From: a virus
DNA length: 64,000 bases
Direction: 5' to 3' (one strand)
IMG/VR virus record: IMGVR_UViG_3300005613_003484
Location: 1 to 64,000 of that record
Shown here: in pieces, positions 3,804 through 38,206 of the stretch
Layout: each line of letters begins with the position of its first letter
How positions within the stretch are numbered: the stretch's first letter is position 1
Notes under the pieces: generated by a model
Told to the model about the DNA's origin: nothing
What the model saw: the letters and a program-made list of their open reading frames with translations, nothing else
Database searches by the model: none
Position numbers and translations under genes: made by a program

Positions 3804-3832
3804 ATTATATATGATAAAAAGAGATTTGTCAA
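3804..3832 (-). promoter_or_regulatory. Early sigma70 promoter for the hli operon
   Basis: TTGACA (3832-3827), 17 bases, TATAAT (3809-3804). The -35 box overlaps the stop of the glycosyltransferase gene upstream. Confidence 0.85.
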
Positions 3833-4623
3833 GCCTCTTGCTTAGATGGTTCAGTAATTCTACCCAAATATGGATTAAAAGATGTGATTTCTTCTACTTT
3901 AAATTTTGCTCCCATTTGTTGCCAAAAATTTAAAATTCCATTATAACTATTACGATGAAAAATATCAATGTGTTCTGGGTGAATTGACGAACCCAATTCA
4001 ATTTTATATAAAAAGATGGGAGTTGCATATGTACATCCAGAGTTATAAATTAAATCATCAGCTACTGGACGAGGTTTTACTCCGTTATCAAGTTTATATT
4101 TATTTCCGCGAATGTGATATCTTATCAATTTTTCTGCGTGATGTCTCGTAATTACATAACATGCAGTCGAAAAATCATTTACGAATCTAGTATGAATTGG
4201 AACTACAATATCACCAGTACAAATAATTGCAAGTTGAATTACATCCCAACAATAAGGAACACGAGCGATAAAATCTACCCAAGTAAAGTTCCAATAATGA
4301 GCTGTGCCCATGTCGCAATCATCTTCCATAATAATTGCATAAGGACTGTCAGAAGTATGATACCAATGATTAATTGCTTTTAAGTGAGATGTTACACATC
4401 CAATTTCACCAGAAGTCATCATATCTGGATATTTTCCTTTTATGATATCGCTTAAATCATCTTCTCTACCATCATATGCAGAAATGCGAGTATAGTTTTC
4501 AATCTCCCAATACTCAAATTGTTCCTTCATATACTGCCATCTTTCGGGTTGACCGTCCAGATTTATGCAGTACACTGGTCCAAAGTTTTTTAATTTATAA
4601 ATTGACTTATTCTTGTCTCTCAT
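3829..4623 (-). CDS. GT25-family glycosyltransferase
   Basis: 264 residues with the pattern of LPS-type family 25 transferases: an N-terminal VYCINLDGQPERWQYMKEQF, then GEIGCVTSHLKAINHW and the metal-binding acid cluster IMEDDCD. It would move a sugar from a nucleotide donor to a glycan. It is the last gene of the sugar cassette. The start at 4623 overlaps the stop of the upstream gene as ATGA; an ATG at 4635 is an alternative. Confidence 0.8.
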   Translation of the reverse strand: MRDKNKSIYKLKNFGPVYCINLDGQPERWQYMKEQFEYWEIENYTRISAYDGREDDLSDIIKGKYPDMMTSGEIGCVTSHLKAINHWYHTSDSPYAIIMEDDCDMGTAHYWNFTWVDFIARVPYCWDVIQLAIICTGDIVVPIHTRFVNDFSTACYVITRHHAEKLIRYHIRGNKYKLDNGVKPRPVADDLIYNSGCTYATPIFLYKIELGSSIHPEHIDIFHRNSYNGILNFWQQMGAKFKVEEITSFNPYLGRITEPSKQEA

Positions 4624-5426
4624 ATTCTTATCCATCTTTCTGGTATTAAATCATTAGTATTTTTATCATCATTTCCCTCTCCAAACCATTGAATTGGGGC
4701 AATGACTTTATTAGAATTAGATAACCATGCCCCCCACCAAGAAAAAGAAGAATTTGCAATAATGTGATACTTACACAATGTCATAAGACATAAATCAACA
4801 TATTGGTCTTTTGATTCCGATATCATAAATCTATCCGAATCAAAAATCTGTTGCTTCTTGCACCAACTAATATCATCAGAAAAAATAATAACGGGAATAT
4901 CCGAATCGAAACATTCGAGTGCTTTAATATAATAATCCAAATCTAAAGTTGTGTGATTTGGATTTTTAAGGTAATCAGTTCTCCTAACATGTAAACTAAT
5001 AACATCACGAATAGATCCCACCATCTCTTTGCAGGGTTCTAGAATCTCATTCTTAAAAGAAAAGTCCTCTCGAATTTCATCTTCAATATGGTTAAAATAT
5101 TTTTCTGATTGAAAAAATCCAGCAAGAGTAATTTCATCTGGGCACATATTAAACAAAGTTTGGTCAAAATGAAAATGTTTCTCTTGTGCTACAGGAGCAT
5201 ACCCTCTGTCAAGAAGTTTAATATTATGCGGAAGAGTGTAGGTCATTTTGAATGGGTAGAATAATTCTATCTTCAAATCAAATCCATAAGGATCCTTAAT
5301 TACTTGATTGTGATTCGGAATACAAAAATCATAACCGCGATTTTTTGCAATACCCCTCAATGAAGCATATTGGAACATTTGATTTCCAAGTCTCCCCAAT
5401 TGCCCCAAATGATTAAACGCTAACAT
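4620..5426 (-). CDS. GT11-type alpha-1,2-fucosyltransferase
   Basis: 268 residues. The N-terminal GRLGNQMFQYASLRGIAKNR, the GDP-fucose-binding HVRRTDY and the C-terminal NSSFSWWGAWL are signature motifs of family 11 fucosyltransferases. The donor would be GDP-L-fucose, which the gmd and fcl products of this operon can supply. It is a paralogue of the gene at 6237-7085; both share EDF-FK-EILEPCKE and IFSDDI. It overlaps the upstream gene by 14 bases. Confidence 0.88.
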   Translation of the reverse strand: MLAFNHLGQLGRLGNQMFQYASLRGIAKNRGYDFCIPNHNQVIKDPYGFDLKIELFYPFKMTYTLPHNIKLLDRGYAPVAQEKHFHFDQTLFNMCPDEITLAGFFQSEKYFNHIEDEIREDFSFKNEILEPCKEMVGSIRDVISLHVRRTDYLKNPNHTTLDLDYYIKALECFDSDIPVIIFSDDISWCKKQQIFDSDRFMISESKDQYVDLCLMTLCKYHIIANSSFSWWGAWLSNSNKVIAPIQWFGEGNDDKNTNDLIPERWIRI

Positions 5427-6240
5427 TCAATTGACTCCTTCTCTCCTTAACATAATTCTGAGATTCATAATAACTCATTATAGCATCTTTATCCCAAGTG
5501 CGAATAGTTTGCCAAAGATTATGGTTATCCATAAACTTTGGATTATGATAATGTGAGTTAAAAGTGCGAGAATGGTCAAAGTGATAGACCACATCATTAA
5601 CTCTACCTACATGATAACCCAATGCTTGAAGACGATAATAATACTCACAGTCTTCTGCACCCCAAGAAATAAAGTTTTCGTTCCACATATAAGAATCAAT
5701 ATAAACTTGACGCTTAATCATTTGTCCCCATCCCATTACAGATGGTTGCAATCTACAATTTGGTTGTAAAAGATTCAAATCAAACTTTGATTGAACAAAA
5801 GCATCAAAGAGTGGAATGGGATAATCAACTGCCCATTGATAAACACCACAACCATATGGATAGACAACATCAAATCCACCCTGCACAATCATATTATATG
5901 CAGTTATATAACTTGATACTGGATAAACAACATCCACATCATAATTATAAACAACTTCTGTTTTCGATGCTAGAAGAAGATCATTTAAGATACGAGTCTT
6001 ATAAAAGAATTGATCGTTTGATTGCTCAAAGATATGATGCAGATTCGTTGGGGTATTCCCAAATATTTTTTGAATGACTGGAAGCGCCTTTTCACCAAAG
6101 ACCGAATGAGTATCATTTTCTTTGATAATAATTGTAGACTGTGGAAAATGATGAGTGATATAACCAATCGATGTAATCACATTTTTGAGTCTGTCTTCAC
6201 TCTCAATCCGACAAGGCATTAAGAATGTAAGATTATTCAT
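5413..6240 (-). CDS. GT-A fold glycosyltransferase
   Basis: 275 residues. A D-x-D type motif appears in YNYDVDVVYPV, and the region FISWGAEDCEYYYRLQALGY is the W-G-x-E-D motif of galactosyltransferase-like and chondroitin-synthase-like enzymes. The acceptor and sugar are unknown. The start at 6240 follows GGAG by five bases and overlaps the previous stop as ATGA; an upstream extension is not supported. Confidence 0.78.
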   Translation of the reverse strand: MNNLTFLMPCRIESEDRLKNVITSIGYITHHFPQSTIIIKENDTHSVFGEKALPVIQKIFGNTPTNLHHIFEQSNDQFFYKTRILNDLLLASKTEVVYNYDVDVVYPVSSYITAYNMIVQGGFDVVYPYGCGVYQWAVDYPIPLFDAFVQSKFDLNLLQPNCRLQPSVMGWGQMIKRQVYIDSYMWNENFISWGAEDCEYYYRLQALGYHVGRVNDVVYHFDHSRTFNSHYHNPKFMDNHNLWQTIRTWDKDAIMSYYESQNYVKERRSQLNVSV

Positions 6241-7085
6241 ACTCCAACTCCAAACCAATCTTGTGGGCACAGGTCATCCATAATGTAATGATCGTAATAA
6301 CTACCAAACCACCGTGTAGGATAAATGATTGCTTGTGTTTTATTTTTCATCAACCAAGCACCCCACCAACTCATTGTGCTATTGGCAATAATTCCTCCAG
6401 TGCAAAGAGTCATCATACACAAATCAAAATAAGGAATCAATGCTTGCTGTCTTCCTTGAAGAGTATCACAAGTTTGAGGATATCTCTCATCAAATTCAGA
6501 AAGCATGAACCTATCGCTATCAAAAAATGATTGCTCTCTACACCACCCAATATCATCGGAAAAAACAATAACACATCTATCTTCAGGGAAATGCGTCAGT
6601 GCTTCTTCATAGTATTCAATAGGACACATTGGATGAGCACTTGGATTGACGGCATAATCACCCCTACGCAAGTGCATAAAGATAGGATTATCAAGTTGAT
6701 CTATAACTTCTTTGCAGGGTTCTAGAATCTCATCCTTGAAAGCAAAGTCCTCACGAATGATATCTTTCACATTATCAAAATATTTCTCTGTTGTAAAATA
6801 GTCGTGAAGATTTACATTGTCTGGACAAGTATTAAAAAAGTCTTCAGAAAAGTGAAACTGATTTGAAGAAATGCTTTGAGCGTTCAAATATCCAAAGTTT
6901 TCTTCCTTGACCGAAGACATTTTAAAGCAATCAAATAGACCATAATTTGAATCCCCGTAACTATCTGGAGGAGGAATTAACCAATCAAATCCACGATTTG
7001 TAGCAATTCCACGAAGAGCTGCATATTGAAACATTTGATTTCCCAAACGCCCATTTGATCCTAGGTGATTATAACTTATCGTCAT
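6237..7085 (-). CDS. GT11-type alpha-1,2-fucosyltransferase, second copy
   Basis: 282 residues with GRLGNQMFQYAALRGIATNR near the N-terminus, the donor-binding HLRRGDY and NSTMSWWGAWL near the C-terminus. All are GT11 signatures. It differs from its paralogue at 4620-5426 by an insert near residues 200-220 (RYPQTCDTLQGRQQALIPYF). Two GT11 enzymes suggest two acceptors or two positions on one glycan. Confidence 0.88.
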   Translation of the reverse strand: MTISYNHLGSNGRLGNQMFQYAALRGIATNRGFDWLIPPPDSYGDSNYGLFDCFKMSSVKEENFGYLNAQSISSNQFHFSEDFFNTCPDNVNLHDYFTTEKYFDNVKDIIREDFAFKDEILEPCKEVIDQLDNPIFMHLRRGDYAVNPSAHPMCPIEYYEEALTHFPEDRCVIVFSDDIGWCREQSFFDSDRFMLSEFDERYPQTCDTLQGRQQALIPYFDLCMMTLCTGGIIANSTMSWWGAWLMKNKTQAIIYPTRWFGSYYDHYIMDDLCPQDWFGVGV

Positions 7086-7897
7086 TATTTTTCCAAGTAA
7101 GTTTTATAAATGTAATCTTCATTGATAAGGAAGTTCTCAACAATTTCTAGATTTTCTTTTACCGCATCAAGTTTATCATAATATAGTTCCTCTGTCAACT
7201 GAGAAAGATCAAAGTCATCAGTGAGTATGAGGATGCCTTTTGGATTGAAAAACTTTCCAATATCGGGAGAACCATAATAAATTGGAATGGTTCCAGTAGC
7301 AAAACAATCTTGAATCTTTTCTGTAAAATAAGATTCATAAGAAGCATTTTCGATGGCCACAGAAAACATATAATCTACTAGACCTTCTTCCTTAGATTCA
7401 ATTTCATTGAATCCCCTACCATAAAAATCGACTTTACCTTGAAGTTTTTGTGCCCAAGACAGACGATGCTTATGTCCCTCACACATTACCTTGTTAGAGC
7501 AAATCATGGAGACTAATTTAGTTTTATCATAAAGTTTTGGTTCAGCAATCCAACTTCCATACAAAGGAGAGAACTTAAACTTAGAATGCAATTTAAGTAA
7601 ATCTTTATGATGTGTAAAAATTGCATCATAAACTCGAACATAATGGAGGTAATTTCTCTTCACATCTTCTAATACATCTGGACAAATATTTGCAGATTCT
7701 AATAGCCAGGCATATTTCTTTTTGCTGTGCGTGTCATCAAAAGCGAGACCAATATATCTGTCCACATAAAAAGTCTCTTCTGCTCCAGAATCAACCCACT
7801 TTATGAACTTTGATTCTTGCTTATGAATGGAGGAGGCTTTATTTCCGTTGTCATAGTTATTGAATCCACCTCCAACTAAGTTATACTGTTTTTTCAT
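7085..7897 (-). CDS. GT10-like fucosyltransferase
   Basis: 270 residues with the family 10 core: FSVAIENASYESYFTEKIQD followed by CFATGTIPIYYGSPDIGKFF. This E-N...Y-x-T-E-K...P-x-Y-x-G pattern binds GDP-fucose in alpha-1,3/1,4-fucosyltransferases. The N-terminal half is the acceptor side and is poorly conserved. Its start base is shared with the neighbouring stop region, so translation is likely coupled. Substrate is inferred from the family and from the GDP-fucose genes in the operon. Confidence 0.8.
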   Translation of the reverse strand: MKKQYNLVGGGFNNYDNGNKASSIHKQESKFIKWVDSGAEETFYVDRYIGLAFDDTHSKKKYAWLLESANICPDVLEDVKRNYLHYVRVYDAIFTHHKDLLKLHSKFKFSPLYGSWIAEPKLYDKTKLVSMICSNKVMCEGHKHRLSWAQKLQGKVDFYGRGFNEIESKEEGLVDYMFSVAIENASYESYFTEKIQDCFATGTIPIYYGSPDIGKFFNPKGILILTDDFDLSQLTEELYYDKLDAVKENLEIVENFLINEDYIYKTYLEK

Positions 7898-7898
7898 T

Positions 7899-8786
7899 TC
7901 AAATCATATCAAGTATTGTTTTTTTCAAATTATCTAAACTAGAAAATTTTTCGAATACAAACTCGGAGTCAAATATCATTTGATAAGGATGGCAGTCTGT
8001 TGCTTTTTCTCCAAAGCATAGAAATTTTTTGTTTTTATCAAATATATTTTCTATTACTGCATTAGTAAAAATAAAAGGTCCAGAATATCTTCCGATCATA
8101 ATATTACAAAATTTAGATAAGTATGAAATCTCATACAAATCCTGACCTTGATTTTTAATAATATCTCCAGTATATTTTATATTTTCTTTGCGAAGTTCTA
8201 TATTATGCGTGGTTATAAAGCAAATGTCCGAATAAATGCTAGAAACTTCGTCTATTATTTCTGCCAAATCTCCATTATAATTACATTGACCAGTTAAAGA
8301 TGGACCATTACAAAATAAAACTTTTTTTCTTTTTTCTGTCTCCAAGAAACAATCTATTGATGCAATATTATAATGAGAATAGTCAATTTTACAACCCAAG
8401 TAATATTCAATTGGTTTTAGTTGTAAATTCGAGTTCAACTGTTGAGACAAAAAATTAAATATTTCTGGATATACCAATGAATATAAAGTCTTCAGAGTAC
8501 ATTCACAATATCCAGGAGTGACTAAACTTGCATATTTTCCTATCCAGGTGTTTATGTAGATAGTGTCATCAATAACAAAATTATGTGCGTGTTCATTATT
8601 CCATTGGACTTTTGGCATCTGATCCATAGGAATATATTCTAAACTCAAATCTTTTAATAGATATTCCCCCCAATAATGAGAATAATAAAACTCAGCTTCA
8701 ATAAATTTCATAATGTGCTGAACAAAAGCCCTAGAGAGAAAAATATCTCCTTTGTGGGCATAATTAAAAAATACAATCTTTTTCAT
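7899..8786 (-). CDS. Probable GT-B glycosyltransferase
   Basis: 295 residues, begins KKIVFFNYAHKGDIFLSRAF, which resembles the N-terminal glycine loop region of heptosyltransferase-like (GT9-like) enzymes. A second half with IGRYSGPFIFTNAV and LCFGEKATDCHPYQM fits the nucleotide-sugar side of a GT-B fold. I do not recognise a precise family. Base composition is more AT-rich than in the flanking gmd and GT11 genes. Confidence 0.55.
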   Translation of the reverse strand: MKKIVFFNYAHKGDIFLSRAFVQHIMKFIEAEFYYSHYWGEYLLKDLSLEYIPMDQMPKVQWNNEHAHNFVIDDTIYINTWIGKYASLVTPGYCECTLKTLYSLVYPEIFNFLSQQLNSNLQLKPIEYYLGCKIDYSHYNIASIDCFLETEKRKKVLFCNGPSLTGQCNYNGDLAEIIDEVSSIYSDICFITTHNIELRKENIKYTGDIIKNQGQDLYEISYLSKFCNIMIGRYSGPFIFTNAVIENIFDKNKKFLCFGEKATDCHPYQMIFDSEFVFEKFSSLDNLKKTILDMI

Positions 8787-9719
8787 TTAATTTAGGACAA
8801 TTTTTTTCATAAGTTCAACTATATATTCCTTGGAAAATATACTAGAGTCAGTATTAATAACATAGTTTTGATTTAAGTATTCTAAAAACAAATCATTATC
8901 ATTATCAATCTTAATGATTTCTTCCATCATCAAATCAAAATCATTGTAGTCATAATAATTTATAAAACATTTTGTATTCAAGTCTTTGTGTATATTTTTG
9001 TTCCCCCAATAGATTGGAATAGTATTTGACAACAAAGATTCATATATTTTTTCGCTAATAAGTCCAGATTCGGATACATAGGTGATGTCATTTGGAGACT
9101 TCACGCACCCATGCGAGTTCTCAAAACAAATATTAAACTTATAATTAGAAATACATTGAACCTTGAATAATGAGTTTTCATATTTCAATACATTTCCCAT
9201 TGGTATTTGTTGACTATTGTTCAAGTACGACCCATGGGAATTAATATATTTGTATTTGCTTAGTTTATCGAAAAAATACTTTCTAGGACAAGATGGATAT
9301 CCATTTCCTCTAGAAACAAAAGAACAGAAGTTTTGAGGGATATTATTTATTTTTTGCCTAGGAAGTAGTAAAAACTCATAATCATTTATATATCCATTTT
9401 TGTAGTATTCATAATTATAAAGAAGAATTAGAGGAACTCTATCAAAGAAAGAATCATCAAAATCAAAAAAAGTTAAAGATTTGTATATTAGACTTCTATC
9501 AATATTCCCAGACCAAGACAAAAACGGCTCTCCGGTATAATATATTATTTTAGAGTTTTTGTATTTTTGTATTTGTGGATCTAGATCATTATCTGTCAAT
9601 ACAATGTCTGGGTCTTCCACATCAAATGTTAAATCAAAACACTGAGATAGTGCCCATGTAAATAAATTGTCTGTTGGATTAAACCAACTAAAATTACAAA
9701 AATATCTTATTTTTTTCAT
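8787..9719 (-). CDS. GT10-like fucosyltransferase, second copy
   Basis: 310 residues. The diagnostic region is FNICFENSHG, then GLISEKIYESLLSNTIPIYW with GN after it, the GT10 donor-binding motif. It is longer and more divergent than the copy at 7085-7897. The start is the ATG at 9719; an upstream TTG at 9728 overlaps the previous gene and is less likely. The gene is AT-rich. Confidence 0.78.
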   Translation of the reverse strand: MKKIRYFCNFSWFNPTDNLFTWALSQCFDLTFDVEDPDIVLTDNDLDPQIQKYKNSKIIYYTGEPFLSWSGNIDRSLIYKSLTFFDFDDSFFDRVPLILLYNYEYYKNGYINDYEFLLLPRQKINNIPQNFCSFVSRGNGYPSCPRKYFFDKLSKYKYINSHGSYLNNSQQIPMGNVLKYENSLFKVQCISNYKFNICFENSHGCVKSPNDITYVSESGLISEKIYESLLSNTIPIYWGNKNIHKDLNTKCFINYYDYNDFDLMMEEIIKIDNDNDLFLEYLNQNYVINTDSSIFSKEYIVELMKKIVLN

Positions 9720-9724
9720 TAATG

Positions 9725-10366
9725 TCAAAAAATTTTATTTTCAACTACAGAATCTTTCCCCTCATGAAAAATAATTTTTGGTACACTAGCATACCCAACA
9801 CAGTCGGTATTCCTAAAAGTAAGCTGTAAGTTTGCATCTGCCGTCCAAGTGACAGGATTGTTTCTTTCATATAAAATTTTTGCATATTCTTTCTTAACTG
9901 CAAATCCAATTGTAGAATCTGGATAAAAGTATCCATTTTTATCTATTTTTATCAAGTTAGAACTGTAATTTGGTGAGGGACTCATATCTTGATGTCCATA
10001 GCCAAGATAAAATAATTGCCAATCTTCTGGAAGTTGATCAAATACTTTATCCATCATTTTTAGACTTTTATCATCTATACATGCATCGTCTTCTAGAATT
10101 AAACAACTTTTAACATCATTGTCAATTATATACCGATAAATCATATTAAAGCTTTCGGAACATCCTATTTGTCCAGGGTATCTGAGTTGACATCCATTAT
10201 CATAATAAGATTGTATATCAAGATCTTCATAACTAACGCCATAAAAGAATGAATAATCTATTCCGTTTAATCTCAATTTTATTCTCTCTTGTCTTTCTTT
10301 TGAAAATTCGTGGTTCGTTGTCAAAACCAAAACTTGTTCAAAGTATTTGTTAAATAAATGTTTCAT
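9725..10366 (-). CDS. GT25-family glycosyltransferase, second copy
   Basis: 213 residues. The N-terminal VLVLTTNHEFSKERQERI, the motif GQIGCSESFNMIYRYII and the acid cluster LILEDDACIDD match family 25 transferases. It is shorter than the copy at 3829-4623. It lies in the AT-rich part of the cassette between two putative GT-B genes. Confidence 0.75.
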   Translation of the reverse strand: MKHLFNKYFEQVLVLTTNHEFSKERQERIKLRLNGIDYSFFYGVSYEDLDIQSYYDNGCQLRYPGQIGCSESFNMIYRYIIDNDVKSCLILEDDACIDDKSLKMMDKVFDQLPEDWQLFYLGYGHQDMSPSPNYSSNLIKIDKNGYFYPDSTIGFAVKKEYAKILYERNNPVTWTADANLQLTFRNTDCVGYASVPKIIFHEGKDSVVENKIF

Positions 10367-33977: not shown

Positions 33978-34978
33978 GACCCATAACTAAACTCTTTCTT
34001 TGCAATCTCATCCAGTTGTTGCATTACTTCTTCAGTGAAATACTTTTCGGGGTTTTTGTAAATTTCTTTGGCATAGATTTTCTTTCCGTCAATCTCATAA
34101 CGACCCGCCACATTCTTCCAAAGTCCACCGATTTCTCCAAGCTCCAAGAGACCATAGAATCGGTCCAATCCCCTCTCATCATAGTATAACCTAATCTCAA
34201 CGTCTTTGTTCTCTTTACTTAAACGCGACTTAGCAGTCTTTGCCTTGATAATGTTTCCAATGATTTCCGTTCCATCCTTCTCCTTTTTCTTGCTAAGATA
34301 AATGATCGTAGAGGCAGCGTACTTAAGACCGCTACCACCACCCATTTCTTTTGTAGGAACATAAGCACCGATGACATCGTAGGTATGATTGGTTACAATC
34401 ATTGGAATGTTTGCTTGACCCAACTTCAGAGTTAGCATTCTAAAAGCACCCTTGACCAGTTGGGATTTGGTCATATCACGAACTTGTTTATCGTTGAGTG
34501 CATCAGTAATCTCCTTTTCGGTAGAAAGCATACCTAAGGAGTCTAACACAAAAATGCAAGGTTTGCGTTCTTCTGCTGGTTTCTTTAAGTATATATCAAC
34601 TGCTTTAAGTGCCTTCGATCTAAAGTCCTCAATTGTAACAACGTTTACAACAACAGTTCGATCAAGATCTAATCCACGATTCTCTAGAAGAGACTTGTTA
34701 ACTGCAGCTTCTGTGTCAAAGTATAAACAGTACCCATCAGGATGAGTATCAAGAAAATTCTTGACGACAGCAAGGCTGAAAAAGGTTTTGCCAGTAGAAG
34801 ACTCACCAGCAATGGCAGTAATCTTATTACCAGATACACCGCCAAATACACTACCTGAAACCAGTGCATTAAAAATGTACGAACCTGTGTCCACATAAGT
34901 TTCAGTCTCATCAATATCTGATGCGAGTTTTGTGAAGTCATCGCCAATTTCTTTTACGATATCTTTTAAGAAGTCCAT
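33974..34978 (-). CDS. uvsX: UvsX recombinase (RecA-like)
   Basis: 334 residues. Walker A is AIAGESSTGKTFFSL, Walker B lies in CIFVLDSLGML, and the ATP-site region IPMIVTNHTYDV follows. It forms the strand-exchange filament for recombination-dependent replication, loaded by UvsY (54844-55272). The start overlaps the gp43 stop as TAATG. Confidence 0.94.
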   Translation of the reverse strand: MDFLKDIVKEIGDDFTKLASDIDETETYVDTGSYIFNALVSGSVFGGVSGNKITAIAGESSTGKTFFSLAVVKNFLDTHPDGYCLYFDTEAAVNKSLLENRGLDLDRTVVVNVVTIEDFRSKALKAVDIYLKKPAEERKPCIFVLDSLGMLSTEKEITDALNDKQVRDMTKSQLVKGAFRMLTLKLGQANIPMIVTNHTYDVIGAYVPTKEMGGGSGLKYAASTIIYLSKKKEKDGTEIIGNIIKAKTAKSRLSKENKDVEIRLYYDERGLDRFYGLLELGEIGGLWKNVAGRYEIDGKKIYAKEIYKNPEKYFTEEVMQQLDEIAKKEFSYGS

Positions 34979-36324
34979 TATGCAAAAAAGCTCTCCAAGC
35001 TAATAGTTTTTTCTACAGACCAACCAATTGCATCGAGAATTGCCCTTAGAGGTTCTACAAATGCCTTGTCAAATTGTAGTTCATGGTCAACGTATTTGTC
35101 AAGACCAAGTTCTTTGGGGAAGTCTTGAATGAAGGAAAATATGTTCTCATGAATAATATTTGGAACCTTCAGGTAACAGAATTTAATTTTCTCCCCATTC
35201 TGAATTAAGGAATACTTGTTTGTCAGTTTCTTTTCCTTTATGTAGTGATTATACAAAAGAGCACCACGAACATGAATTGGAGTCCCCTTTCTGTAAATTG
35301 TTTTCTTGTCTTGGAACTTTTCAACATCACTTACAGAACGTGGGAATGAAATTTCTTCAGCTGAAAGTTTCTTGAAATCCTTTCTTGACTTCTCAATAAA
35401 GTTAATCACATCATCTTCAGTGCCGACCATGACAAGTTTAAGTGCATCCTTAATCATCTTACGGCAAGGTGCTGGAGTCGAAGACTTAACTGCTTCGATG
35501 CCCATAATCTTGAGTTTTGGTTCTTCATAACGAACACCCTCACTATCCCATACATTGAGAATATAACGCTTCTTCGCAGTCCAAATACCACGATCAGCGA
35601 TATTCTCTCTCTTCATTTGCATTTTTTGTTCATACGCCGAAACGTAGTCCGCAAGTTCCTGATAACTAGCGTCGATGAACGGTTCCAATTTATCTTTGCA
35701 GATCTTATCAAGTATGTCAACAATTGCTGCTTTATCGCCAGATTTATTAGCAAAAAATTTAGAAACAAGAGGTCCAAGGTTAAGATAAATTGAGTCAGTG
35801 TCAGATGCGATGACATAATCTACACCTTCGGTTTTTAAAAGGTTATTTAGATATGCATTCATCTTATTCTCAATCCATCGGATTGACACTTGTCCCGATA
35901 GTGTAATTGCCTCTGCGTTTGCAAGTTTATAATACCTAAAGTATTGATTCCCAATGGCACCATAAGCAGAGTTCAAAGAAATCTTTTTTGCCATCTGAAT
36001 ATTATTACATCTAGCAATTTCTTTCTTAACTTTCTCCGAGGGATTTTTTTCATACTCTTTTTTAGCTTGAATCATTCTCTTTTTGAAAACGACTCGTTCA
36101 CTGTACATTTTATCCATAAGTTCAGGAAGCATACCCTTTACTTTACGATAGAGTGCCCCGTTTGCAGTCATAGTAAGATTTACCTTCTTTAAAGGTTCTA
36201 AATCCAAATTTTGATTGAGAAGTTTATCAACATTTACTTGATTAGAAAGTTCCATTACTTTCTTAAGTGCTTCCAATTCTTCTTTAATCTCTTGAGGGGA
36301 CATTTGTCGGACATCTTTCCACAT
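34978..36324 (-). CDS. 43: DNA polymerase gp43, C-terminal half of a split gene
   Basis: 448 residues from the ATG at 36324, seven bases after GGAG. It holds polymerase motif B (KISLNSAYGAIGNQYFRYY) and motif C (YVIASDTDSIYLNL) plus the thumb. The exonuclease and motif A lie in the separate upstream gene (36935-38206). An HNH gene sits between. The start MWKDV joins smoothly to the N-half end at AELEKM, so the ancestral gene probably read ...EKM-WKD... The two halves likely assemble into one enzyme, as known for split gp43 in some Aeromonas phages. Confidence 0.92.
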   Translation of the reverse strand: MWKDVRQMSPQEIKEELEALKKVMELSNQVNVDKLLNQNLDLEPLKKVNLTMTANGALYRKVKGMLPELMDKMYSERVVFKKRMIQAKKEYEKNPSEKVKKEIARCNNIQMAKKISLNSAYGAIGNQYFRYYKLANAEAITLSGQVSIRWIENKMNAYLNNLLKTEGVDYVIASDTDSIYLNLGPLVSKFFANKSGDKAAIVDILDKICKDKLEPFIDASYQELADYVSAYEQKMQMKRENIADRGIWTAKKRYILNVWDSEGVRYEEPKLKIMGIEAVKSSTPAPCRKMIKDALKLVMVGTEDDVINFIEKSRKDFKKLSAEEISFPRSVSDVEKFQDKKTIYRKGTPIHVRGALLYNHYIKEKKLTNKYSLIQNGEKIKFCYLKVPNIIHENIFSFIQDFPKELGLDKYVDHELQFDKAFVEPLRAILDAIGWSVEKTISLESFFA

Positions 36325-36325
36325 A

Positions 36326-36892
36326 TTATATCTCCACAACTTTATTATGTTTTTTGCGGTTTTCACTCATAGTAATAATTTGTAAGTTTTCTTCGTGATG
36401 CTTTCCACCTTTAGAAATTGGAATAATGTGATCTACTTCGTGAGGAATGTTAGTTTCTTTGGTTAGTCGTTTTGCCTCACAATAGATTTCATGTATCTTT
36501 TCTTGATCTGCAGTTTCGTCAAAAGCATCTTTCATTCTACATCTTCTACGAGCAGCAACAGAATTTAATACTGCCCTCTTATGATCCTCACCCAAATATC
36601 TAAATTTTGTAGAGCAAGAATGAGAACAAAACCGAAGTTTCCATTTTTCATTTATTGCTCTAAATCTACTAACCATAAATTCAATTCCACAATTTTCACA
36701 ATAAAGAACTTCTTTTCTTTCTTTGTTTTTATTTTCCAGATGTTTAGGTTTTTGTAAATTGAACTTTTTTATTTTTTGTTTTATAAGTGGATCAGAGCAT
36801 CCAAAAAATTCGGCACATTCTTTACGACTTTTGTTTTCAATAATATAAAGTTGATGTAGTTGTTCTTTTGTTATATTAAATTTTGGTTGCAT
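36326..36892 (-). CDS. HNH homing-type endonuclease inserted in gp43
   Basis: 188 residues. The N-terminal part has a helix-turn-helix-like stretch (SRKECAEFFGCSDPLIKQKI), followed by a zinc pair (LYCENCGIEFM, CSHSC) and the HNH motif at the C-terminus (IPHEVDHIIPISKGGKHHEE, then NLQIITMSENRKKHN). It lies exactly between the two halves of the polymerase gene and has its own late promoter. It is a free-standing gene: I found no intron core around it. Confidence 0.9.
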   Translation of the reverse strand: MQPKFNITKEQLHQLYIIENKSRKECAEFFGCSDPLIKQKIKKFNLQKPKHLENKNKERKEVLYCENCGIEFMVSRFRAINEKWKLRFCSHSCSTKFRYLGEDHKRAVLNSVAARRRCRMKDAFDETADQEKIHEIYCEAKRLTKETNIPHEVDHIIPISKGGKHHEENLQIITMSENRKKHNKVVEI

Positions 36893-36913
36893 TTAATTTT
36901 ATCCACACTTTAT

Positions 36914-36921
36914 TATTTATA
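36914..36921 (-). promoter_or_regulatory. Late promoter TATAAATA inside the gp43 insertion
   Basis: Minus-strand TATAAATA 22 bases before the HNH gene. It could also drive the C-terminal half of gp43 late in infection. Confidence 0.75.
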
Positions 36922-36934
36922 AGGTGAGGATATT

Positions 36935-38206
36935 CTACAACATTTTTTCTAACTCTGCAATACGGTTATTAAGTTCGTGCTTTTCAACAAGTGTTTCTGG
37001 TGAAATTGCGTACTGCATGATCAAATGCGGATACAGTGAGTTAAGGTCAAAACTGACCACATAATCATATCTTCCAGGAATTGGTTCCTTCACATAGGCA
37101 CCAGCATACTTGTCATCTTTATTACCACCAGTCTTTGGTGGAATTACGATATTCTTTCTCTTCAAGTAGTTGTAGATAATTGCATCCCACATACGAACTT
37201 GATAAAACACATCGTTATAGTTGACCTTTGCATCATAGGCCATCGTCAGAGCAAGTTCAATCAATTTCATCTTGTCTTCCAAACGGTCAACAAGTTCTAC
37301 GTCGATGATATTATACTCTACAAACTTCTGCCAATTATTTGTGTAGAAATCTTTAAAAGTATCAAACTCTGAGTGATCTAGTTTCTTTTGGCCAAGTTCA
37401 ACGAATGCAATATGATCCAGTCGATATGACTCTTGATTTGTATAAGTGAATTTTTTATAAAGATTCAAATAATCCAATTGAGTAATTCCACCAACATCAA
37501 TACTGATGTTCTTTCTCCCAGAGATAAAAACCTCCTTTTCTGTTACAAGACCCCATGGAGAAAGTCTTTTCATGAGTTTCTCACCCAGAACACGATTCAT
37601 ACGCCTTGTAATATAAGGCATATCATAGAGTTCAATATTCCATCCAGTCACAATGTCTGGGGTATTATCCATCCACCAATGAATAAAGTCATTAAGAAGA
37701 TCGTACTCAGAATGAAACTGGCGGAATTTGACTTTTGGATTTGTGCTATTAAATGGACCAAGACCCCAGGTAATAATATTCTTTGTAGTATAATCTTGAA
37801 TCGTAATCAGAAGAATTTCTTCAGATACATTAAAGACATCTGGGAATCCGTTTTCTGATGCAACCTCAATATCTAAACTATAAAGAGAGATTTTTGAAAT
37901 ATCAAAGTTGATGTGATCTTCTGGATACTTATCGGAGATGTATTGATAGATAAACCTCTCATTACCATAAATGGTAAAATCATCGACGCCATCATACTTC
38001 TTAATAAAATCCCGACACTCACGAACAGATCCTGGTTGAATTGCTTCAACATAGTGCCCATCTAAAGTTTTGTACTTTGTTTTCTTTTTTGAAGATACAA
38101 AAAGAGTCGGATTGAATTTCTCTCTGGTCATGAAACTTTTTCCGTTTTCATAACCCCTGACAAGAAATTGGTCTCCGACCATTTGAATGTTTGTGTAAAA
38201 TCTCAT
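36935..38206 (-). CDS. 43: DNA polymerase gp43, N-terminal half of a split gene
   Basis: 423 residues. It carries the 3'-5' exonuclease motifs (YSLDIEVASENGFPD, TGWNIELYDMPYI, YNIIDVELVDRLE) and polymerase motif A (VVSFDLNSLYPHLI). The frame ends ...NNRIAELEKML and stop. Motifs B and C are in the next-but-one gene. Nothing suggests decay: no internal stop or frameshift. It overlaps the Sm-like gene upstream by four bases. Confidence 0.93.
   Translation of the reverse strand: MRFYTNIQMVGDQFLVRGYENGKSFMTREKFNPTLFVSSKKKTKYKTLDGHYVEAIQPGSVRECRDFIKKYDGVDDFTIYGNERFIYQYISDKYPEDHINFDISKISLYSLDIEVASENGFPDVFNVSEEILLITIQDYTTKNIITWGLGPFNSTNPKVKFRQFHSEYDLLNDFIHWWMDNTPDIVTGWNIELYDMPYITRRMNRVLGEKLMKRLSPWGLVTEKEVFISGRKNISIDVGGITQLDYLNLYKKFTYTNQESYRLDHIAFVELGQKKLDHSEFDTFKDFYTNNWQKFVEYNIIDVELVDRLEDKMKLIELALTMAYDAKVNYNDVFYQVRMWDAIIYNYLKRKNIVIPPKTGGNKDDKYAGAYVKEPIPGRYDYVVSFDLNSLYPHLIMQYAISPETLVEKHELNNRIAELEKML

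Follow-up and report, generated by a model that had tools for sequence, protein, structure and literature searches.

The window analysed here, bases 1 to 64,000 of the 66,539-base IMG/VR record IMGVR_UViG_3300005613_003484, carries the DNA polymerase gene gp43 in two pieces separated by a gene for a homing-type HNH endonuclease, and comparison with related loci indicates that the cut, the helices connecting the two pieces and the nuclease travel as one mobile cassette that turns a one-piece gp43 into a two-piece one. A homing cassette in gp43 would explain the split, its spread, the exchange of nucleases and the retained split, and we place the probability of this reading at about 85%. What the sequence comparison establishes is the anatomy of the unit, its recurrence, its lateral spread, the selection acting on its three genes and the exchange and decay of its nuclease. 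The evidence base consists of metagenomic contigs, with no complete genome among the split records. The isolate nearest to the window at the gp43 locus is Synechococcus phage S-T4, and the source virus is probably a marine T4-like cyanophage, its host group being judged from that of its relatives.

Organization of the split gp43 locus

On the minus strand, the genes are arranged in the order regA, hsp20, small ORFs, gp43-N, HNH, gp43-C, uvsX and replicative helicase (Table 1). The N-half comprises the N-terminal part, the 3'-5' exonuclease (DNA_pol_B_exo1) and the first part of the palm with motif A (SFDLNSLYP), and the C-half comprises the fingers, the remaining palm with motif B (KKISLNSAYG) and motif C (SDTDS), and the thumb; both match PHROG 262 alike, with E ~1e-175. 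The cut falls in the palm ahead of the fingers and separates motif A from motif B; the PolB exonuclease thus shares a chain with motif A, and motif C is on the other. With the exonuclease and motif A in gp43-N and motifs B and C in gp43-C, activity should therefore need both chains. The first-pass annotation of this DNA had described a polymerase gene divided between motifs A and B by an HNH gene, and the ORFs, their order, their strand and the placement of the motifs are all as it claimed. The GTG start proposed for gp43-C by the ORF finder (36366) falls within the HNH gene, and the ATG start lies at 36324. An assembly error is excluded, since dozens of contigs independently show the arrangement. 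A full-length gp43 elsewhere, which the same annotation had named as the finding that would count against it, was encountered neither in the entire 66.5 kb record, which holds no second polymerase, nor next to the split gene in another six split records, which measure 60-140 kb.

Table 1. Features of the split gp43 locus, in coordinates of the window.
Feature	Coordinates	Strand	Basis
gp43-N, 423 aa, ends ELEKML then stop (...NNRIAELEKML)	36935..38206	-	ORFs, Pfam, PHROG, alignment to S-T4/S-CAM7 gp43
Imperfect inverted repeat TATCCTCAC...GTGTGGATA, late promoter in loop	36900..36932	-	Comparison of relatives
T4-type late promoter octamer TATAAATA, between gp43-N and HNH	36914..36921	-	Octamer count and conservation
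HNH homing-type endonuclease, 188 aa	36326..36892	-	Pfam, PHROG, alignment of relatives; dN/dS
GGAG, ribosome-binding-site-like, for gp43-C, within HNH 3' end	36332..36335	-	7 bases before ATG at 36324
gp43-C, 448 aa, starts MWKDVRQM	34978..36324	-	ORFs, Pfam, PHROG; start ATGTGGAARGAY in 88 contigs
Predicted extent of mobile cassette, against L003	36110..36988	-	Identity profile; edges good to ~25 nt

The HNH protein is laid out with an HTH-like N-terminus, two Cys pairs in mid-protein and the HNH at its C-terminus. It matches the Pfam HNH family PF01844 with 33.7 bits (cut-off 21.4; E 4e-8), and residues D154, H155, N169 and N178 are invariant in 23 relatives. Comparison of its profile with the PDB yielded no meaningful match, and the structure model obtained for it (mean pLDDT 50) was too poor for use. 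As judged by Rfam, Pfam and spacing, the gene is free-standing, outside any intron or intein. The protein would be expected to cut cassette-free gp43.

The late promoter and the separate GGAG site for the C-half that had been proposed from the window sequence were both recovered. The window holds 12 late-promoter octamers, where shuffled sequences give 4.5 +/- 1.9, and every one of the 12 is on the minus strand. The octamer between gp43-N and the nuclease gene is retained in 24 of 26 distinct relatives; expression from this cassette promoter would presumably be late and, as the first-pass annotation suggested, might supply extra C-half at that stage. The inverted repeat around it is likewise retained in relatives and is perfect in several. 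The GGAG inside the HNH end is likely to be the gp43-C ribosome site. The ATGT noted earlier at both junctions did not hold up as a conserved feature of the N junction, where 7 of 26 relatives present ATGC, ATGA or ATAT, and an origin of ATGT as a target duplication was rejected because the N-side copy is not conserved. In window 36900-36932, and at the equivalent place in loci with a GIY-YIG-type nuclease (see below), the promoter is flanked or followed by inverted TATCC/GGATA motifs, which are a possible operator for the HTH common to both nuclease types.

Distribution of the cassette

A search with the HNH protein returned 51 IMG/VR loci, every one of which (51/51) lies inside the same split gp43. 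Searching for the start of the C-half (ATGTGGAARGAY) returned 88 IMG/VR contigs; a gp43 C-half was confirmed at 81 of the 81 loci examined (80 of these contigs plus the window), and its own start codon is retained by every C-half. The cassette was present in none of 50,697 phage records searched for isolates, no relative of it was found in GTDB genomes, and a literature search produced no earlier account of the present cyanophage split.

Lateral spread of the cassette among gp43 alleles

The identity profile of the window against the contig L003 runs at ~75-80% outside the cassette and mostly at 96-100% within it, with sharp edges. The block takes in the last ~50 nt of gp43-N, the intergenic segment, the HNH gene and the first ~210 nt of gp43-C; in terms of DNA identity, the polymerase outside it is mostly 63-88% identical, compared with 98% in the N-tail, 98.6% in HNH and 97% in the C-head. 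The cassette has similar edges in the pair L014/L040. Phages with ~70-77% identical polymerases share HNH, the N-tail and often the C-head at 96-99%, again with sharp edges, and in L222 versus L045 the HNH gene is 95.9% identical against ~69% in both halves, the right edge coinciding with the C-half start. Across 27 loci, the identities of the N- and C-halves correlate at 0.70 (pairs with N <85%) and those of HNH with either half at 0.12-0.16; the loci were picked by HNH similarity, which raises the mean HNH identity but leaves the within-pair contrast unaffected. A high-identity block, together with halves that track each other but not HNH, argues for homing with short co-conversion.

Trees inferred for each polymerase half, leaving out the loop, intermingle split and one-piece genes, with 16 and 13 changes between the two states; at least 9 and at least 10 of these are forced by well-supported branches, although these are quick trees and recombination in gp43 can inflate such counts. 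The first-pass annotation had guessed that the HNH protein is of the homing type, and the identity pattern and the scattered phylogeny give this strong support. The same scatter could be mimicked by recombination of gp43 and of HNH copies after a single old split that was then inherited vertically. In keeping with that explanation gp43 is mosaic, the N-half and C-half trees disagreeing in places, but holding the split genes as one clade was rejected (p 1.6e-71), and the region of high identity has the cassette at its centre and ends abruptly on either side. Furthermore, split genes pair at the tips with short-loop one-piece genes in both half trees: the window polymerase groups with the one-piece, short-loop gp43 of S-T4, and the other cases are L003/L098, L209/L285 and L210 near L207. 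A single old split is hence improbable, and a cassette moving by homing remains the reading pursued below.

Loop forms of one-piece and split genes

The SPET-to-NGA loop measures ~36 residues in most one-piece cyanophage gp43 genes and ~67 residues in a few (S-CAM7, L139/L226, L213, L224, L229, L230), whereas in split genes it reaches ~75 residues divided over both chains; by length, split genes thus correspond to long-loop genes plus ~8 residues (the MWKDVR.M region). In S-T4, the window's nearest relative, the loop is short and quite unlike that of the split genes. Among unsplit long-loop genes the closest, L213 (ELNSRIAELESSGENDDELKSLKKVKELS), reads ELESSGENDDELKSLKK at the junction, 8-9 residues shorter than the joined halves, and may be either an ancestor-like form or a re-fused descendant. 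The earlier claim that joining the halves as EKM-WKD reveals the sequence before insertion could not be upheld, as no such polymerase allele was found: a pattern scan of the whole collection gave zero unsplit polymerases with the joined sequence, returning only five unrelated loci, and most relatives are short-loop. The comparison with unsplit relatives that had been proposed as a check yielded no exact empty site, but it did reveal that the loop of one-piece genes differs from the joined halves. Because the unsplit relatives carry a shorter or different loop, the cassette would have brought flanking coding sequence along. At the level of sequence comparison, the identity profiles and the trees indicate that the cassette has moved laterally into alleles lacking it, converting their flanks along with it.

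The halves could in principle be rebuilt into one polymerase chain through self-splicing of an intron or through a split intein, and group I introns have been reported in gp43 of phages 25 and JSE (PMC2993671). At the window locus, however, no Rfam intron and no ribozyme core were found, and the HNH ORF fills nearly the whole insert, with only 42 nt between the gp43-N stop and the HNH ATG and 1 nt between the HNH stop and the gp43-C ATG. No intein domain was detected with Pfam, inserts range from 50 to ~1100 nt, some being mere remnants, with both halves still open, and each C-half has a start codon of its own. Splicing, which had been named at the outset as grounds for abandoning the two-piece interpretation, is accordingly very unlikely.

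Insert variants, decay and selection

The insert at the same gp43 site consists of HNH alone or of HNH accompanied by another gene, which may be a Dam-type methylase, a small zinc-type ORF or an ORF of unknown kind. The Dam-type adenine methylase gene (PF05869, E 2.8e-30) lies between HNH and gp43-C in L005, L007, L013 and L015, and its product could protect against the homing nuclease or be mere cargo. Some loci harbor instead of HNH a GIY-YIG-type nuclease, the Pfam match of which is weak (E 3e-4, below cut-off); such a protein with a C-terminal HTH is encoded between the gp43 halves in L055, L062, L063, L225 and others. The C-terminus of the GIY-YIG protein resembles the N-terminal HTH of the HNH protein (45-54% over ~40-55 residues), and to all appearances the catalytic parts have been swapped around a shared HTH DNA-binding part. 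One contig, L334 (IMG/VR 3300049043_000027), presents HNH, GIY-YIG and methylase matches between its gp43 halves, with broken frames and low identity, and may be error-rich.

In at least 15 contigs, amounting to about 8 distinct sequences since several are near-copies, gp43 is still split and the nuclease is reduced to a remnant of 50-223 nt or absent. The remnants usually retain the 3' end of the nuclease gene, which is the expected place of the C-half ribosome site. The gp43 halves and HNH are all under purifying selection. The median dN/dS of HNH is 0.115, and the values for the gp43 halves range over 0.03-0.19 in split pairs versus 0.025-0.08 in one-piece pairs, a slight excess in some split pairs that may reflect noise or relaxed constraint; purifying selection on the halves persists without the nuclease (pair L214/L219). 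As the record represents only part of a larger genome, a second polymerase could lie outside it, but a dead split gene with replication carried out by another polymerase is highly improbable, given that both halves keep all motifs and a low dN/dS, even in phages whose nuclease has gone, and that the split polymerase is the only one in the six further split records.

Proposed mechanism of splitting and assembly

The structure model of the unsplit L213 protein, which matches the fold of RB69 gp43, has a mediocre mean pLDDT of 69.7 over the whole protein and local values of ~78-91 around two helices (residues 409-422 and 426-441); these are connected through a short turn, close to which the split is located. 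Across split genes, hydrophobic residues recur every 3-4 positions in both helices, the first residues on the C side being fixed by the search pattern. The two helices probably pair across chains and help the halves to meet. Assembly of gp43-N with gp43-C is to be expected, and the purifying selection on both fits with it.

The proposed cassette would consist of the end helix and stop of the N-half, the late promoter, HNH (or GIY-YIG), occasional cargo and, for the C-half, its ribosome site together with the helix at its start. In a mixed infection, the nuclease would cleave a cassette-free gp43, into which repair would then copy the cassette along with adjacent coding sequence, from a few tens of bp to ~200 bp. 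The resident 36-residue loop would thereby give way to a longer one, predicted to form a helical hairpin with its break close to the turn, and a one-piece polymerase would become a two-piece one in a single step. The two chains would be made separately and fold together, probably aided by the two amphipathic helices; the nuclease may later decay while the split persists.

More tentatively, and at somewhat less than even odds, the helices may constitute a docking hairpin borne by the cassette, letting any invaded one-piece gp43 work at once as two chains. If true, this would be a protein counterpart of the splicing by which introns and inteins invade essential genes unharmed, and it would account for short-loop recipients acquiring nuclease and long loop jointly, and for the use of one landing pad by different nucleases and cargo.

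Relation to known two-piece enzymes

Aeromonas phages 25 and 44RR encode a T4-type gp43 as two ORFs (43A/43B), with the homing gene seg43(25) in phage 25 and without it in 44RR (PMC2988022), and the gp43 halves of phage 25 are reported to be active and to purify together (Petrov et al. 2010, cited after the review PMC2988022). The 44RR gene is split in the fingers (43A 498 aa, 43B 391 aa), whereas the window gp43 is not split at that position but in a palm loop before the fingers; the system described here also differs in its HNH or GIY-YIG+HTH nucleases, its cyanophage host group and the presence of the cassette in many lineages. New with respect to phages 25 and 44RR, then, as far as the sequences tell, are the split site, the nucleases, the host group and the evidence that the split itself moves. 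In Aeromonas phage Aeh1, the free-standing HNH gene mobE splits nrdA and the halves yield an active enzyme (PMC2988022). As in the window, a free-standing HNH gene divides an essential enzyme gene, but host gene and nuclease are different, and PMC2988022 does not report, for that system, repeated transfer in which nuclease and cargo can be exchanged. I-TevI, mobE(Aeh1) and segB have a late promoter and an inverted repeat directly before the endonuclease gene (PMC2988022), a control region that the promoter and repeat of the window resemble, although in the window, unlike in those systems, no strong ribosome site can be seen that the hairpin would cover.

Enzymes broken in two by homing genes were previously known as single curiosities; here, one mobile unit would repeatedly split the replicative polymerase of environmental phages. 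Every stage can be seen, from a presumably active nuclease through its exchange for another and the addition of a methylase to a decayed remnant and a split that outlasts it. The system makes it testable how a selfish gene breaks an essential enzyme without killing its carrier, and it offers a natural two-piece PolB enzyme. Marker surveys based on gp43, and gene callers, may truncate such split genes.

A second, independent two-piece long-loop gp43 was observed in L230 (IMG/VR 3300017739_002380, about 560-1200), which, unlike the window, is split in the fingers at approximately the 44RR position and has small non-nuclease ORFs between its halves. Elsewhere in the window, positions 3829-10366 hold a run of glycosyltransferase genes (families 25, 11, 10 and 7C-like), fucosyltransferase-type included.
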